DNA of 64,000 nucleotides, from NCBI GenBank assembly GCA_009773455.1, contig WSXU01000006.1, forward strand, positions 248,001 through 312,000, in the 5' to 3' direction. This document shows positions 26,768-32,580 of the stretch, piece after piece. The notes under the pieces were generated by a model that did not search any database, was not told the origin of the DNA, and was given only the letters and a program-made list of their open reading frames with translations. How positions within the stretch are numbered: position 1 is the first letter of the stretch; every line of letters starts with the position of its first letter. The translations under genes were made by a program, and so were the position numbers. Source of the stretch: Bacteroidota bacterium. Its GTDB lineage: Bacteria > Bacteroidota > Bacteroidia > Bacteroidales > Lentimicrobiaceae.

Positions 26768-27433
26768 ATGGAAATCCTGAACGAACACATCAACAACATT
26801 CTCAAACAGCTTCCGCCCGATGTTGTTATGGTGGCGGTGACCAAGACAAGGCCGGTTGATGTTCTGAAACAGGCTTACGACCTTGGTCTGCGCGATTTCG
26901 GCGAAAACCGGGTACAGGAAATGCTTGAGAAACAGCCAATCCTCCCGGCCGATATCCGCTGGCACCTCATTGGTCATCTGCAAACCAATAAGGTAAAGTT
27001 CATTGCACCTTTCGTGCACCTGATTCACAGCGTCGACAGCCTGAAACTGCTGGAAGAGATCAACAGACAGGCAGCCAGGCAAAACAGAACCATCGATTGC
27101 CTGTTGCAGATATACATCGCCACCGAAGAATCCAAGTTCGGACTCGATCAGTCTGAAGCAGAAGCGCTGCTGGAATCTGAGGTATATAAAACCATGACGA
27201 ACATCCGGATCTGCGGATTGATGGGAATGGCAACCTTTACCGACGATGTTTCGCTGGTCAGGAGGGAATTTGCCGGATTAAAATCGATGTTTGAAACTAT
27301 AAAACAGAAGTACTTCCGGCAGTCGGAATATTTCAACATCATTTCGATGGGCATGTCGGGCGATTACCTAACGGCCATAGAAGAAGGCAGTACCATGGTG
27401 AGGATAGGAACGGCACTGTTTGGTGAGAGGTAA
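26768..27433 (+). CDS. yggS: YggS/PLPBP-family pyridoxal phosphate homeostasis protein
   Basis: 221 residues from the ATG at 26768, chosen because a promoter covers the ATG 42 bp upstream. Seen: MVAVTKTRPVDVL with PLP-binding Lys26, DFGENRVQEM, WHLIGHLQTNK, HSVDSLKLLEEI, GLMGMATF and SMGMSGDYLTAIEEGSTMVRIGTALFGER at the end (family C-terminal block). Known: binds PLP without catalysing a reaction and balances vitamin B6 and amino-acid pools. Usual family length is 220-235, which supports the shorter start. Confidence 0.93.
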   Translation: MEILNEHINNILKQLPPDVVMVAVTKTRPVDVLKQAYDLGLRDFGENRVQEMLEKQPILPADIRWHLIGHLQTNKVKFIAPFVHLIHSVDSLKLLEEINRQAARQNRTIDCLLQIYIATEESKFGLDQSEAEALLESEVYKTMTNIRICGLMGMATFTDDVSLVRREFAGLKSMFETIKQKYFRQSEYFNIISMGMSGDYLTAIEEGSTMVRIGTALFGER

Positions 27434-27457
27434 TTTATAATTCGTTCACAGTAAAAC

Positions 27458-27513
27458 TTAACATTGATTTAACATTGGTTTAACTTTCAGGTAACGATGA
27501 GGCAATATTTTTG
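27458..27513 (+). promoter_or_regulatory. Pho-box-like operator and promoter
   Basis: Direct repeats in strict 11-bp register: TTAACAT (27458), TTAACAT (27469), TTAACTT (27480), and a weaker GTAACGA (27491). A -7 element TATTTTTG (27506-27513) begins 19 bp after the end of the third repeat, with no proper -33. Known: PhoB/OmpR-family regulators bind 7-bp repeats with 4-bp spacers and replace the upstream promoter element. The same arrangement and the same 19-bp distance occur in front of the lipoprotein/TonB-receptor operon at 34.1 kb. Confidence 0.65.
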
Positions 27514-27535
27514 CATCATCACAAAAAGATAAACC

Positions 27536-27886
27536 ATGAAAAAATTCATCAGAATAGCAGCTATTGCATCATTTACATTAGTGTTCAGCGCTTTAACCTT
27601 TGCTGAAGGAAAATCCACCAGCACTCCGGTAGCAACAGCCTCTGTCAGCGGACAGGTGCTTGACATCAATTCGGGCGAAGCCCTTGCAGGTGTTGCCGTT
27701 TCTGTTGAAGGAACCGATGTTAAAGTTTATACCGATCTTGACGGAAACTTTACCATCAAGGGCATTGAACCGGGAACCTACAATCTGATCCTCTCCATGA
27801 TCTCTTACAAAAACAGCCTTGTTGAAAATGTGAAACTTCAGGCCAACGAAACTGAAAGCATGAACGTTAAGCTTGATAATGAATAA
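27536..27886 (+). CDS. Secreted single CarboxypepD_reg-like domain protein
   Basis: 116 residues. Seen: signal peptide ending LTFAEG; then one beta-sandwich domain: SVSGQVLDINSGEALAGVAV, TDLDGNFTIKGIEPGTYNL, MISYKN, ending NVKLDNE. Known: this domain normally sits at the N-terminus of SusC-type TonB-dependent receptors or in carboxypeptidases; alone it has no enzymatic activity. Inferred: a free periplasmic copy could associate with an outer-membrane transporter. It shares its operator type with the TonB-receptor operon, which supports a joint regulon. A strong terminator follows. Confidence 0.8.
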   Translation: MKKFIRIAAIASFTLVFSALTFAEGKSTSTPVATASVSGQVLDINSGEALAGVAVSVEGTDVKVYTDLDGNFTIKGIEPGTYNLILSMISYKNSLVENVKLQANETESMNVKLDNE

Positions 27887-27915
27887 AATGTAGTGTGTTT
27901 GTATATAATTTCCGG

Positions 27916-27942
27916 GCCGTGTATTCAACACGGCTTTTTTTT
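27916..27942 (+). terminator. Intrinsic terminator
   Basis: GCCGTGT-ATTCA-ACACGGC followed by eight T, 29 bp after the preceding stop. Confidence 0.92.
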
Positions 27943-28161
27943 GCTTCCGGATAAAACGTTTGGTACTCAATTCCAGGAATTGATGAATCAGGTTCAGGAT
28001 TCCATATTTCATCATTCATTCATTCTTTCATTGCTAAAGGACTATGAACTATGCACCCTACTTCTGCAAAGCTTACTGCCTACTTTATAAGGGACGAAAG
28101 ACGTGGGACGTGGGACGATAAAGGCGAGGGCGCGACTGAGCGACTGAGCGAAAAAAGGCGA

Positions 28162-28207
28162 TAACTCCATAGGCTAGCAACTCATAACTCCATAGGCTAG
28201 CAACTCA
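28162..28207. repeat. 23-bp tandem duplication inside repeat unit 1
   Basis: Two identical 23-bp copies (28162-28184 and 28185-28207) beginning TAACTCCATAGGCTAG. Units 2 and 4 carry a single copy, so unit 1 has gained one by recent slippage or recombination. Confidence 0.9.
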
Positions 28208-28221
28208 ATCAGAACATAGAG

Positions 28222-28274
28222 GTACCTGATACTCCCTACTTAAATTGGGACTTGAGACGAGGGACGGGGGACGA
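28222..28274. repeat. 53-bp exact repeat, copy 1
   Basis: Identical over 53 bp to 28655-28707; runs from GTACCTGATACTCCC through the TTAAATTGGGACTTG linker to the GGGGGACGA heptads. Perfect identity implies recent duplication or conversion. Confidence 0.9.
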
Positions 28275-28423
28275 AACTGCCGACTGACTAGTGCCTACTG
28301 CTTACTTTATGAGAGACGAAGGACGTGGGACGATAAAGGCGAGGGCGCGACTGAGCGACTGAGCGAAAAAAGGCGATAACTCCATAGGCTAGCAACTCAA
28401 TCAGAACATAGAGGTACCTGATA

Positions 28424-28465
28424 CTCCCTAGTCCCTAGTCCCTAGTCCCTACTCCCTACTGCTTA
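28424..28465. repeat. Six-unit heptanucleotide array
   Basis: Six consecutive heptamers in register: CTCCCTA, three GTCCCTA, CTCCCTA and CTGCTTA. Confidence 0.9.
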
Positions 28466-28552
28466 CCCACCTCCGGCGGGCAAGCTGCCTACTGCCAACT
28501 CTTTACTTTATAAGGGACGAGGGACGGAGGACGGGGGACGATAAAGGCGATG

Positions 28553-28594
28553 GTTCGACAAGCTCACCAACAGGTTCGACAAGCTCACCAACAG
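28553..28594. repeat. 21-bp tandem repeat module, copy A
   Basis: Two perfect copies of a 21-bp unit starting GTTCGACAAGCTCACC. This module replaces the CGCGACTGAGC module found at the same place in units 1, 2 and 4. 21 bp is three heptads. Confidence 0.9.
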
Positions 28595-28654
28595 GTGCGA
28601 CGGAGCGAAAAAAGGCGAACACTCCTAATGAAAAACCTTCAATCGAATTTAGTA

Positions 28655-28707
28655 GTACCTGATACTCCCTACTTAAATTGGGACTTGAGACGAGGGACGG
28701 GGGACGA
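28655..28707. repeat. 53-bp exact repeat, copy 2
   Basis: Second copy of the 53-bp identity described at 28222-28274; here it links units 3 and 4. Confidence 0.9.
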
Positions 28708-28871
28708 TAAAAGCGAGGGCGCGACTGAGCGAAAAAAGGCGATAATTCCATAGGCTAGCCACTCAATCAGAACATGAAAGTACCTGCTACTCCCTACTGC
28801 TTACTGCTTACTGCCAACTTTTTAATGTACGAAAGACGAGGGACGGAGGACGTGGGACAATAAAGGCGATG

Positions 28872-28913
28872 GTTCGACAAGCTCACCAACAGGTTCGACA
28901 AGCTCACCAACAA
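28872..28913. repeat. 21-bp tandem repeat module, copy B
   Basis: Same two-copy 21-bp module as at 28553-28594, with the last base changed from G to A. It sits at the equivalent place in unit 5. Confidence 0.9.
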
Positions 28914-28984
28914 GTGCGACGGAGTGAAAAAAGGCAATAGCTCCATAGGCAAACCACTCAATCAGAACATAGAAGTACCTGATA

Positions 28985-29075
28985 CTCCCTACTCCCTATT
29001 CCCTACTCCCTACTCCTAACTCCCTACGTCAAACTGCTAACTATTAGTTATTATTTGTTAACTATTAACTAATAA
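28985..29075. repeat. Thirteen-unit decaying heptad array reaching into the MORN gene
   Basis: From 28985 the sequence divides exactly into heptamers: CTCCCTA twice, TTCCCTA, CTCCCTA, CTCCTAA, CTCCCTA, CGTCAAA, CTGCTAA, CTATTAG, TTATTAT, TTGTTAA, CTATTAA, CTAATAA. GC content drops along the array and the last units overlap the end of the minus-strand coding region (stop codon at 29069-29071). Confidence 0.75.
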
Positions 29076-29524
29076 GCTCTTTCCATCACCAGTGTTCCGG
29101 TTTCATCCCATTTTCGCCAGATACCGGAGCGGTTACCGGCAGTATAATGCATTTCATACAATAACCGGCCGGAGTTGTCCCAGACAAACCAATTGCCTTC
29201 CTTAACATCATCCTTATACCCGGCTTCAGCTGTTTTTACACCATTCTCATTCCAGGTCTCCCATTTGCCGGTCTTCTTACCCTCACTGTATTCACGGATC
29301 TCCTGAATTTTACCGTTTTCATAATACAGGGTCATTTTACCGTCAACCAGTCCGTTCTTTACCGATTGTTCAAGCATTATTTTACCACTGTCATAGTACT
29401 CAAGATTGGTGCCTGTGTAAAGCATCCCCTTTTTATAATACAAGCCATTCTCGTACTCAAGTTTCTGTGAGAAAACCGAGAAATAAGTCAGAATCAGCAA
29501 AGAAGTAATCAGTAGTTTTTTCAT
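29069..29524 (-). CDS. Secreted MORN-variant / YwqK-type repeat protein
   Basis: 151 residues with a signal peptide (to FSVFSQ). Seen: five to six repeats of about 22 residues with the pattern Y-nG---G-w--w-e-G (YENGKIQEIREYSEGKKTG, WNENGVKTAEAGYKDDVKEG, WDNSGRLLYEMHYTAG), typical of MORN_2/YwqK proteins. Known: often annotated as 'YwqK antitoxin', but in Bacteroidota these are secreted beta-repeat proteins without proven role; no toxin gene is adjacent. The final codons overlap the heptad array. Downstream of the TonB receptor by 167 bp on the same strand. Confidence 0.8.
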   Translation of the reverse strand: MKKLLITSLLILTYFSVFSQKLEYENGLYYKKGMLYTGTNLEYYDSGKIMLEQSVKNGLVDGKMTLYYENGKIQEIREYSEGKKTGKWETWNENGVKTAEAGYKDDVKEGNWFVWDNSGRLLYEMHYTAGNRSGIWRKWDETGTLVMERAY

Positions 29525-29691
29525 TTTTAAGGTTATTGGTGCTGCAAAACAGTCTGTTCATCTGATTGATTGTATAAAGATAATAAACCGTAATGAAAAA
29601 ATCAGTTCCACTTCCGGTATTTCATTTCACATTTCAGAATGATGATGTCAGCAGCATAATTAGTATTTGAATAATGATCACAATCAGGGTG

Positions 29692-32580
29692 TTAGAAAAA
29701 CTTATAGCTGATTCTAAGCTGAAAAGTCATCCCCTGGTTTAAACGTGTAAAGTAACGATCATCGGCCTGGTATGACATAAATACAGACTCTTTGCTGCTG
29801 TTGAGCAGGTTCTCAATCTTGATCCCGGCCTGAATCCGCTTTTCTTTTCCGAAACTCTTGTTGGTATTTAGGTTCAGGCTGTGAAAAGGTTTGGCATAAA
29901 TATCGGGCCTGTCGTTGATACCTACAAATTCCAGGGTCCGTCCCTGAACATTATAGTAAGCTCCGGCTTCGAACCCGCTCCAGAATCCTTTTTCGCCACC
30001 GTTGTATGCCAGACCGGCATTGATGATGTAGGGTGACTGTCCTGCCATATCCCTGTATTCCCTGATTTTCTCCCCGTTTCTGGCATTTTCAACCCTCGAG
30101 GCATACTCTGTCTCACTCAGCCTGATTCTGGAGGTGGTTAAAGTTACATTTGAAGTGAAGGTCACCCCTGAAAGCGCTGTGCTGAGTATATCAAGGTTCT
30201 TCCTGACTTCGAATTCGACTCCGGCAACCTGGCCATCACCTACATTCCTTGGCTGGAAGGCATTGGTGGTGGTGGCATACTGAACAATTTCAATCGGGTT
30301 CCTGAATGATTTGTAGAATCCACCCAGTGAAACTGTCTGGCCATTCGTGCCGAACAACTCCCATCTCAAATCAAAGTTCTGAATGTCGGTACTTCCCAGA
30401 TTTCCATCCCAATAGGTAATACCGGCCTGTGTATTGGCATCCGGGAACAATCCGCCGATAAAGGTGCGTCCGGTAATCGGATCTGAAATTTCAGCATAGG
30501 ACAACTCCCTGAACGATGGTCTGGCAATGGTTTTTGCATAGGAGGCCCTCAGATTTTGTGAACCTGAGAGATTATAGATGAGGTTCACCGTAGGGAACAG
30601 ATCAGAATTGTCAAGTACTTTTCCATTATCAAGCACATTGGTACCCAGCTGGTCCTGCCCTGTATACCGCTGCACAAATGTCTCACTCCTGATCCCGACA
30701 ATCGCTTTCAGGTGATTGAAGGGACTGAACTCGGCCGAGACATAAATGCCGGTGTTATGATTGTTGGCATCAAATTTATTTGGATTGTCAGGAATGAATG
30801 GGGCTTCATAGGTGGTGCCTTTACCGGCATTCTCTCCTGACGGCCATAAATTCTCAGGACTGAATATTTCATTGGGATCGCCGGTGAGAGACAGATTACG
30901 GATGTTGATGGCATAGTTGAGGATGCTGTAGCTGCGTTCCTTGTATATATAGGATCCTCCGAACATCACCCTTGCCTTTTCACCACGCAGTTTAAAATCC
31001 CTTGCAAAATGCATCTGGCTGACATAATTCTTTTCATCGAGATTTCTCCAGATGCGTTCAGGGAAACCCGACTCAGTGCTGATCGAATACATGCCATCGC
31101 GTACTTCATAGCGGGTGAAACGGATATCCGGATCCTCAATCCTTGAGAATGTCGGTGAGAACTTCCACTCGGCTTCCCACTTTTTAATGAAATACTTTCC
31201 GTTAACCAGGAAATTGGTCAGTGATCGCTGGCTGTATTCAAGGTTATGCTGCACTCCCTGAAAAACGGTGCCCTGGTTGGTTTTGCTATAGTCGAAAACC
31301 CCGGCTTTCGATTCCCCATTCTGCAGGTGCAGAATGTTGATCCTGTATTTTGATTTACCGGTTTTCAGGGCCAGACCTACCAGGCCACCGGCCAGGACAC
31401 TGTGTACGCCATAGTCGCCCGACTGAAGTTCCCTGGTTTCCATGGCATAATCGTTTGGATTGCTTGATATTCCATATCGACCGTATTCGGCATCCTCAAA
31501 AAATTCGGTATTCACTTTATAGGACAGGGCAACATTATATCCCCAGGTCAGTTTCTTACCAACCAGCTGATTCCCAAGTGAAATTCCCGCACTGTAATCC
31601 ATCATGCTGGTCTCTTTCATGGCAGCCATAACCGGATTGAAACCTTCCAGTATCTCACGGTAACGGATTCCTTTCGGACCATCCGGATTACCGACTACCT
31701 CAGAGAACTGCGGTATGTTTGTGACAGCCGGAATATCACGGGTACCATCATCAAAACCCAGAAAGTCAGTTTTACCTCCCTCATAAGTAAGATAATTGCT
31801 GTTAAAATGCATGGATGGATTGTATCCCATTGATACAGAAATATTTCCTGTTTTCATCTCAGGAAAATCCCTGGTTTCAATATCGATAACGCCACCTGTG
31901 AAATCAGCCGGCAAATGGGCGCTGAAAGATTTATGCACGATGATGTTATCAATCACATTGGTAGGGAACAAATCCATCTGTACCGTGTTCCTGTCGGGAT
32001 CCAGTCCGGGAATATCAACACCGTTCAGGGTTGTTTTTGTGTAACGGTCACCAAGGCCGCGTACATAAACATATTTGCCTCCTTCAACCGAAACGCCGGG
32101 CACCCTCTTCATCGACGATGCTGCATCTGAATCACCGATCCTCCTGAAATTGACCGCTGAAATACCGTCCATCAGTGTAGCAGACTTCTGTTTCATCGTC
32201 AGCATGGCAATTTCAGAATTGCGCACGACTTCTGCGGTGATCGTCACTTCGGACAATTCAATTTTAGCTTCTTTCAACCTGAGGTTATCGAGCAGGCTGA
32301 CCTCACCCGGCTTCACTTCAAGTCCTTTTATGTTAACGGTTTCATATGAAATGAATGAAACCCTGATGTTGTAATTTCCCGGAGCAACGCTGAGATTAAA
32401 TTTGCCGTCAAAATCGGTCATGGTGCCGGTGGTAGTCCCTTCAAGGAAAATGGTAACCCCCGGCAGGGATTCACCGGTTGAATTGTCGTAAACGGTTCCC
32501 CGGATAAATCCATTCTGGGCACTCAGTGTAAAGAATGAAAAAATTGAAATTACAATCAGTGTGAGTTTTCTTGGATGCAT
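29692..32580 (-). CDS. TonB-dependent outer-membrane receptor
   Basis: 962 residues. Seen: signal peptide (to TLSAQ); CarboxypepD_reg-like domain about 24-105 (GFIRGTVYDNSTGESLPGVTI); plug domain about 115-240 with SSMKRVPGVSVEGGKYVYVRGLGDRY and ADFTGGVIDIETRDFP; 22-strand barrel; terminal beta-signal RISYKFF. Known: this receptor branch takes up large or scarce nutrients with TonB energy; no SusD partner is present. The upstream gene is a beta-helix lipoprotein under a Pho-box-like operator, so the pair may serve in phosphate or phosphorylated-substrate acquisition (inference). An 11-bp intercistronic hairpin precedes it. Confidence 0.92.
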   Translation of the reverse strand: MHPRKLTLIVISIFSFFTLSAQNGFIRGTVYDNSTGESLPGVTIFLEGTTTGTMTDFDGKFNLSVAPGNYNIRVSFISYETVNIKGLEVKPGEVSLLDNLRLKEAKIELSEVTITAEVVRNSEIAMLTMKQKSATLMDGISAVNFRRIGDSDAASSMKRVPGVSVEGGKYVYVRGLGDRYTKTTLNGVDIPGLDPDRNTVQMDLFPTNVIDNIIVHKSFSAHLPADFTGGVIDIETRDFPEMKTGNISVSMGYNPSMHFNSNYLTYEGGKTDFLGFDDGTRDIPAVTNIPQFSEVVGNPDGPKGIRYREILEGFNPVMAAMKETSMMDYSAGISLGNQLVGKKLTWGYNVALSYKVNTEFFEDAEYGRYGISSNPNDYAMETRELQSGDYGVHSVLAGGLVGLALKTGKSKYRINILHLQNGESKAGVFDYSKTNQGTVFQGVQHNLEYSQRSLTNFLVNGKYFIKKWEAEWKFSPTFSRIEDPDIRFTRYEVRDGMYSISTESGFPERIWRNLDEKNYVSQMHFARDFKLRGEKARVMFGGSYIYKERSYSILNYAINIRNLSLTGDPNEIFSPENLWPSGENAGKGTTYEAPFIPDNPNKFDANNHNTGIYVSAEFSPFNHLKAIVGIRSETFVQRYTGQDQLGTNVLDNGKVLDNSDLFPTVNLIYNLSGSQNLRASYAKTIARPSFRELSYAEISDPITGRTFIGGLFPDANTQAGITYWDGNLGSTDIQNFDLRWELFGTNGQTVSLGGFYKSFRNPIEIVQYATTTNAFQPRNVGDGQVAGVEFEVRKNLDILSTALSGVTFTSNVTLTTSRIRLSETEYASRVENARNGEKIREYRDMAGQSPYIINAGLAYNGGEKGFWSGFEAGAYYNVQGRTLEFVGINDRPDIYAKPFHSLNLNTNKSFGKEKRIQAGIKIENLLNSSKESVFMSYQADDRYFTRLNQGMTFQLRISYKFF

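Follow-up and report, generated by a model that had tools for sequence, protein, structure and literature searches.

Cyanobacterial STRR sequences (short tandemly repeated repetitive sequences) consist of degenerate contiguous heptamers, with words of the CCCCAAC, TTGGTCA and CAACAGT types. REP and REPIN elements are also short intergenic repeats, which carry palindromes and go together with RAYT transposases. Heptamer repeats of the GGGNATC and GGGGA(C/T)T types are described for Xanthomonas and Nostoc in the excerpts of Rehm et al. 2015 (PMC4692102) used here, and the portions of MacGregor 2015 (PMC4679880) used here report TAACTGA direct repeats in Beggiatoaceae, Cyanobacteria and five Bacteroidetes, together with intergenic heptamer assemblages in some Bacteroidetes whose relatives have shorter, repeat-free gaps. 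The cause of the dominance of heptamers among long simple repeats in many bacteria is unsettled; a polymerase-contact hypothesis has been put forward (Mrazek 2007, as cited in the excerpted text of PMC4679880 and PMC4692102).

Here we analyzed a repeat cluster in a 64-kb window, that is, the whole stretch of DNA from position 248,001 to 312,000 of contig WSXU01000006.1 of a Bacteroidota bacterium of the Lentimicrobiaceae (GCA_009773455.1). The cluster lies inside this 316-kb contig of a 4.81-Mb draft genome of 159 contigs, and by most of the features tested its sequence appears to belong with the intergenic bacterial heptanucleotide repeats. Positions given below are those of the window.

Anatomy and seven-base phase of the cluster

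The left neighbour of the cluster (27536-27886, + strand) encodes a 116-aa protein with a CarboxypepD_reg-like domain (Pfam PF13715, E 5.6e-19) and the right neighbour (29069-29524, - strand) a 151-aa MORN_2 repeat protein (Pfam PF07661, E 3.3e-16). Both genes turn their 3' ends to the cluster across a convergent gap of 1182 bp, in which the repeats occupy 28076-29026. A terminator-like hairpin of the left gene lies outside the cluster at 27914-27936 (+ strand; one found versus 1.3 expected in shuffles), and hairpins with a T run were seen by eye at the corresponding place in relatives, for example in loci L184 and L186. An 82-aa open reading frame within the repeats (28503-28751, - strand) was rejected as a gene, as it is without a Pfam match and reads as non-coding repeat, and an Rfam search of 27400-29700 returned no match at E <= 1, that is, no known structured RNA.

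A sequence-only reading of the window had described heptad arrays, an AT-rich linker heptamer and a longer body at this place, and all of these are present. The cluster consists of six (NGGGACG)n arrays, hereafter G arrays, and in each case a single AT-rich heptamer stands before the G array and one or more C words (CTNCYTA or a variant of it) before that heptamer. The same reading had counted five units of about 145-225 bp; there are indeed five bodies, of 83-125 bp and starting with ATAAAGG or ATAAAAG, but they are entered from five of the six G arrays and the units are not equal. It had also put the number of heptamers at about 5-9, whereas the G arrays alone hold 3-5 NGGGACG words each, some of them degenerate.

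All the following features are on the + strand. By word-by-word reading, the cluster opens with the C word CTGCCTA (28076-28082), the linker CTTTATA (28083-28089), G array 1 with four words of the NGGGACG type (28090-28117) and body 1, of type A (28118-28231), in which a CTCCATAGGCTAG stretch is tandemly doubled with a unit of 23 bp. The C word CTCCCTA (28232-28238) and the linker CTTAAAT (28239-28245) lead to the four words of G array 2 (28246-28273), which exits into AAA and then C words, without a body; the proposed unit order ending in ATAAAGG fails at this array. The C array behind it (four words, 28277-28304) is shifted in register by 3, the length of the AAA, and is followed by the linker CTTTATG (28305-28311), G array 3 (three words, 28312-28332) and body 2, of type A (28333-28423). 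Ahead of the fourth G array the C words form a stretch of six, including a GTCCCTA variant (28424-28465), and one of three (28485-28505), with a short palindrome CCCACC...GGCGGG nested between them (28466-28480, no strand assigned). The linker CTTTATA (28506-28512) then joins them to the four words of G array 4 (28513-28540), behind which lies body 3, of type B, with 21-bp GGTTCGACAAGCTCACCAACA repeats (28541-28664). A second CTCCCTA (28665-28671) and a second CTTAAAT linker (28672-28678) precede G array 5 (four words, 28679-28706) and body 4, of type A (28707-28789). Lastly, a C array of four words (28790-28817), the linker CTTTTTA (28818-28824) and the five degenerate words of G array 6 (28825-28859) are followed by body 5, with a type B front and a type A back (28860-28984), and by the last C array, six words (28985-29026) that appear as TAGGGAG when the right neighbour's coding strand is read and that lie 42 bp from the stop codon end of this gene.

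The autocorrelation check called for by the earlier reading places the cluster far above shuffled sequence. Identity at lag 7 was 0.404 over 28071-29075, compared with 0.257 ± 0.014 (mean and sd) and a maximum of 0.305 in 500 dinucleotide-block shuffles, and among 243 further stretches of 1005 bp taken, with overlaps, from the 64 kb, the highest value was 0.296. TRF reported period 7 at 28425-28458 and 28983-29027. Tandem units of exactly 7 bp are in this way more frequent than chance would give, as is characteristic of bacterial heptanucleotide repeats.

The six C-to-G junctions of the cluster, with linkers at 28083, 28239, 28305, 28506, 28672 and 28818, are all in exact 7-bp phase (our script gave a residue of 3 at 28239 and 28672, from an overlapping CTACTTA; read word by word, both are in phase). 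The linker and G array at 28239-28273 are identical to those at 28672-28706, and those at 28083, 28305 and 28506 are alike. The six junctions are therefore related copies and do not amount to six independent trials of the phase. Furthermore, counted from ATAAA(A/G)G, the C words that follow the bodies lie at distances of 2, 0, 5, 6 and 6 modulo 7, so that the phase is lost across four of the five bodies. Elsewhere in the genome, eight similar C-to-G junctions were compared, seven by script and the eighth (C34:90544) by hand. Three of them are in phase (two on contig C122 and C34:93460) and five are off by one base, two on C148 and one on C120 being one base longer and those on C53 and at C34:90544 one base shorter. 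The claim that the phase never slips is accordingly right for the C-to-G junctions within the cluster and wrong at four of the five bodies, at the AAA exit and at five of the eight outside junctions.

Dispersal in the genome and occurrence in relatives

The sequence-only reading held that a single occurrence without relatives would mark the cluster as a local slippage product. In the genome-wide search relatives of the heptad arrays were found. TCCYTA repeated three times, with one mismatch, had 187 matches in the 4.81-Mb genome and its reversed control none, and three G words with up to three mismatches had 41 matches versus 19 for the control, so that the loosest G-word matches are partly due to chance. 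BLASTN of the cluster against its own genome gave 70 matches at E <= 10, the cluster itself included. The body motif fared differently: CTCCATAGGCTAG has three exact matches in the genome, but all within the cluster.

The order C array, linker, G array and A-rich exit recurs at five further loci, on C34 (two junctions), C122 at 24.5k (two), C148 (two), C120 and C53, with linkers of CTTTTCC-, CTTTTTC- or CTTCTCC-like sequence, and a locus on C122 at 9.1k has a G array followed by C words. With the window, C148:115.8k, C122:24.5k, C122:9.1k, C34, C53 and C120, this makes seven loci where C and G arrays stand together, and at all seven both word types are on one strand. Such agreement in order and strand is more regular than two independent repeat classes need, so that a mobile step, in which one ancestral compound was copied to the various loci, may have been involved. 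Among the array sites examined, which were taken from the matches listed and form part of the whole set, 21 of 23 lie between called ORFs (two of them sharing 3 and 10 bp with the end of a gene) and two overlap an ORF of uncertain reality. Dispersal over many loci, mainly outside genes, is likewise a feature of heptanucleotide repeats.

The other four bodies align to body 2 at 78-89% identity. As a query the body had no match outside its own genome among 295 genomes of the order, with two candidates scored per genome, and within its own genome its matches were seven pieces that lie in the cluster, besides a weak one of 41 bp on C68; as far as searched, this long sequence appears to be confined to the cluster locus. 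Its front (AAAGGCGA..GCGAAAAAAGGCGA) resembles stretches on C68, on C5 and in the relative G017, and a 21-bp TTCGACAAGCTCACC element also occurs on C19, C5, C49 and C144, so that the body combines, as a mosaic, short repeats known from other intergenic places with a stretch specific to this locus.

Several other short repeats were met in the same loci. The 21-bp GGTTCGACAAGCTCACCAACA repeat is in tandem in two bodies (28552-28601 and 28871-28920) and occurs elsewhere at L146 (C49), L163 (C144), L165 (C5) and L182 (C19). Of 40 own-genome loci retrieved, nine contain a palindrome of the form CCC(G/A)CC-N3..5-GG(C/T)GGG, and each of these nine also has C words, at up to 120 bp from the palindrome in eight loci (often 0-23 bp) and at 3 kb in L157; the sites near C-word arrays are 28466-28480 and those in L143, L144, L145, L148, L150, L153, L155 and L160. 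These palindromes look like REP-type inserts. An additional heptad class, (AACTAAC)n, shares loci with C-word arrays (L143, L151, L152, L160 and L167), and yet another, (TAAATCG)n, was met by the loose G-word scan in L168, L166 and at L152:4914 and was left out of the G-array counts. In addition, L147 (C49:169.8-170.3k) was seen by eye to hold a longer tandem repeat, with a unit of about 170-190 bp and GGGACGAGGGACG-like stretches.

Across 19 genus genomes, the C pattern had 187 matches in its own genome, 11 in G017, 3 in G018, 1 in G007 and none in the other 15, while the reversed control matched in three genomes (in 1, 2 and 1 places). Judging from these counts, 187 against 11, 3, 1 or none, the repeats look like a young burst, from which step size, growth direction and gene-end preference could be read. 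Together with empty syntenic sites, the presence of any match in four of the 19 genomes gives the sporadic occurrence that is typical of heptanucleotide repeats.

The locus of the MORN gene was found in 14 relatives, at 49-66% identity. In seven genus relatives the CarboxypepD_reg-like and MORN_2 genes form the same convergent pair, with gaps, measured between alignment ends, of 229, 231, 253, 291, 469, 638 and 724 bp versus the 1182 bp of the cluster. In L195 and L197 the two genes run in the same direction, in L185 the contig ends, and in L187, L188, L189 and L193 the partner gene is absent from the fetched flank. Runs of three C or G words around the MORN gene numbered ten at the own locus and were found in none of the 14 relatives' loci. 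By eye, L190 (genome G015) carries a (TTAAGG)n hexamer array in the syntenic convergent gap, a site that has gained a different simple repeat, and the closest relative (L184) resembles the own locus in a short stretch of the AACTATT type next to the MORN gene. In the genus relative G018, locus L094 shows by eye C words followed by G words in the opposite orientation, so that the order of the compound is not universal.

Further afield, four exact C words occurred in 6 of 395 phylum genomes, the own one included (reversed control, 9), and three exact G words in 5 of 395, again with the own one (reversed control, 3). Since the control counts are similar, arrays built from other heptads occur about as often in these genomes. 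The strict junction pattern, which as an exact pattern misses diverged junctions, was found in the own genome alone (3 places) among 198 genomes, and its reversed control in 14 of the 198. In the genome collection, TACTTT N{1,9} GGGACG N GGGACG matched 19 contigs, of which six were inspected: L114 and L119 (Bacteroidales, in near-same context) have a T-rich stretch, an in-phase G array and C-like words, with no C array in front, L105 (Bacteroidetes) has a G array at a spacing one longer, and the other three look like chance. Among the four further phylum genomes with G words, one has an array that starts directly at the stop of an open frame (L218), and two have arrays that by eye continue in a 7-bp step with changed words (L216 and L217, genomes G291 and G333); the changes run from GGGACGA to GTGCTGA and from ACGAGTT to ACTAGGT to ACGAGGG. 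Compound arrays in which words change while the phase holds offer a direct test of 7-bp slippage.

Origin of the cluster and possible roles at gene ends

We consider it probable that the cluster originated by lineage-specific growth of heptanucleotide repeats, through slippage and local duplication, and that it has been tolerated between convergent genes. Two heptanucleotide classes, the C words CTNCYTA and the G words NGGGACG, joined by an AT-rich heptamer, would have arisen and spread in this genome, and at the cluster site repeated duplication would then have multiplied a compound that measures about 200 bp and is made up of a C array, a linker, a G array and a body. Array lengths would change by whole 7-bp units, by replication slippage or unequal recombination, and such whole-unit gain and loss would keep the register where the words change. 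The body brings together short repeats that also stand between other genes of this genome and a stretch specific to the locus, and the whole would be tolerated thanks to its position, which is beyond the stop codons of two genes that converge. The anatomy of the cluster, its dispersal, its occurrence in few genomes of the genus and the empty syntenic sites of relatives are observations; we infer that slippage and duplication were the process and that the cluster lacks a selected function, being probably for the most part a by-product of DNA copying errors.

For the position of the arrays relative to genes we relied, in place of annotation, on ORFs that we called greedily with a minimum of 100 aa. 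For the window this scoring takes a spurious 140-aa ORF as left neighbour and gives a distance to the right gene of 258 instead of 42 bp, since the strict word failed to catch the last array. One of the 23 own-genome array sites (L167) lies at a contig end without a 3'-side gene, leaving 22. The gene on the side to which CTCCTTA points presents its stop-codon end in 14 of these 22; taken by itself, this share does not reach significance. The arrays close to a gene are suggestive: of the 11 that lie at most 40 bp from the gene to the 3' side of CTCCTTA, 10 are at a stop-codon end and one at a start, and on the opposite side 0 of 23 arrays are within 40 bp of a gene. For the C words such a position has a simple explanation: read as TAAGGAG or TAGGGAG, their arrays have stop codons in every frame within 21 nt, so that a C array running into the end of a gene this way round causes little damage; the argument covers the C words and leaves out the G words. 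TAAGGAG also contains AAGGAG, a Shine-Dalgarno-like word; in Bacteroidota, where Shine-Dalgarno pairing is little used, TAAGGAG arrays might be harmless for that reason.

The preference of the near arrays for stop codons could mean a role in 3' ends. Under this explanation, which we regard as rather unlikely, the arrays would be 3'-end structures, RNA hairpins or quadruplexes, that end transcription or protect the mRNA of the adjoining genes. It would agree with the G-rich strand being the coding strand at the 10 of 11 near arrays and with a like preference reported for the G-rich heptads of Xanthomonas and Nostoc in the excerpts of Rehm et al. 2015 (PMC4692102). Folding supports it at one place. 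Compared with dinucleotide shuffles, the six window junctions had z values on the + strand of -0.34, -1.49, -0.15, -2.91, -0.53 and +0.71, and the stretch 28415-28545, which joins G array 4 to the C words of 28424-28505, was alone in a clear excess and is the sole clearly stable fold among them (z -2.91 on the + and -3.54 on the - strand); over both strands the others ranged between -1.49 and +1.86. Eight C-to-G junctions outside the window gave +1.12, +0.37, -0.77, -0.56, +1.20, -0.64, -1.80 and -0.96, the one on C53 being borderline (z -1.80, 9 of 200 shuffles as good), and two G-to-C stretches gave -1.66 and -0.07. Against permuted heptads, junction J4 was equalled by 0 of 200 permutations, J1 by 9 of 200 and each of the remaining four by 83-136 of 200. 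The stepped hairpin that the sequence-only reading had thought possible, with the AT-rich heptamer as its closure, is therefore unsupported as a general feature, with one of 14 C-to-G junctions clearly above shuffles, and the 13 without a clear excess argue equally against a 3'-end role. The hairpin was also rejected as the cause of the phase: besides the lack of a clear fold excess in 13 of 14 junctions, slipping the G arm in silico by -3 to +3 nt at three of the six junctions changed the energy by at most 1.3 kcal/mol, so that a hairpin would not select for phase.

Quadruplexes and terminators lead to a similar weighing. Two G3N1-7 motifs, at 28433 and 28987 on the minus strand and derived from C arrays, speak for a 3'-end role, but the + strand has none and none of the six window G arrays matches the motif, and we rejected the G-quadruplex as a common property of the G arrays of the window. 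A search for intrinsic terminators (GC-rich hairpin and U run) found none within the cluster and one outside, at 27914, and no U tract follows the sole good hairpin on the minus strand. The absence of heptad arrays around the MORN gene in all 14 relatives' loci examined also argues against a 3'-end role.

It is improbable, in our estimate, that the compound is a miniature mobile element of the REPIN or MITE kind, moved in trans, for example by a Y1 (RAYT-like) transposase. The genome has nine matches to Y1_Tnp (PF01797), both word types share a strand at seven loci, an inverted repeat CTTTAT...ATAAAG surrounds G arrays 1, 3 and 4, and short CCCGCC-GGCGGG palindromes lie near many C arrays. On the other hand, the six Y1_Tnp loci examined of the nine contain neither heptad arrays nor CCCGCC palindromes, the body was found at the cluster locus alone (with few candidates scored per genome), boundaries and linkers vary, and no target duplication was seen by eye. 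Additionally, no phage or plasmid record matched at E <= 1e-5 with the BLAST low-complexity filter on. In viral contigs, 23 matches to a 14-base pattern of the body word were taken as chance.

We give equally little credence to the idea that the ordered compound of C words, a T-rich heptamer, G words and an A-rich exit, with both word types on one strand, is a selected or copied heptad-phased 3'-end element, planted behind stop codons in this lineage and kept in register by a process with a 7-base step, for example a polymerase or a single-strand binding protein with a 7-nt footprint. Lastly, a misassembly of repeats from several organisms is very improbable: the draft has 159 contigs and several arrays stand at contig ends (C40, C19, C120, C29), as repeats breaking the assembly would give, but the cluster is inside a 316-kb contig, its flanking gene order is kept in seven genus relatives, and the word types recur on many contigs.

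Comparison with known repeat systems

The kinship to heptanucleotide repeats suggested by the sequence-only reading was borne out by the 7-bp units, the dispersal over the genome and the sporadic occurrence. In the open PMC literature, full-text searches with 12-mers and with heptanucleotide-repeat topics found no description of these repeats, the 12-mer matches being judged to come from primers, aptamers and similarly unrelated work; the words, the ordered same-strand compound with its AT-rich heptamer and the nested palindromes were not found in the literature so searched.

The words of the cyanobacterial STRR types named above differ from the C and G words of the cluster. With REP and REPIN elements the repeats share their short intergenic nature, the palindromes near some of the arrays and the presence of Y1 transposases in the genome, but they have no conserved palindromic ends and no linkage to the six Y1 genes examined.

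The TAACTGA repeats, as presented in the excerpted text of MacGregor 2015 (PMC4679880), are similar in being intergenic heptamer arrays with shorter, repeat-free gaps in relatives, and the (AACTAAC)n class of our loci resembles them. The word in the cluster is another one, however, and in Beggiatoaceae the repeats are mostly just before start codons, whereas the nearest arrays here are mostly at stops.

The heptads of Xanthomonas and Nostoc are comparable in several respects. In the excerpts of Rehm et al. 2015 (PMC4692102) they are tandem units of 7 bp that contain a run of G, are dispersed in the genome and mostly intergenic, and form some inverted pairs, as do the repeats here. Their preference for the coding strand in the first 50 bp after a stop codon (0-50 bp) may have a counterpart in our arrays, of which 10 of 11 within 40 bp of the 3'-side gene and 14 of 22 over all distances are at a stop-codon end. 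Unlike those quadruplex heptads, the G arrays of the window fail the motif of four G3 runs on the + strand. The repeats described here also differ from those in the excerpts in their words and in the joining of two word classes into ordered compounds with an AT-rich heptamer between them.
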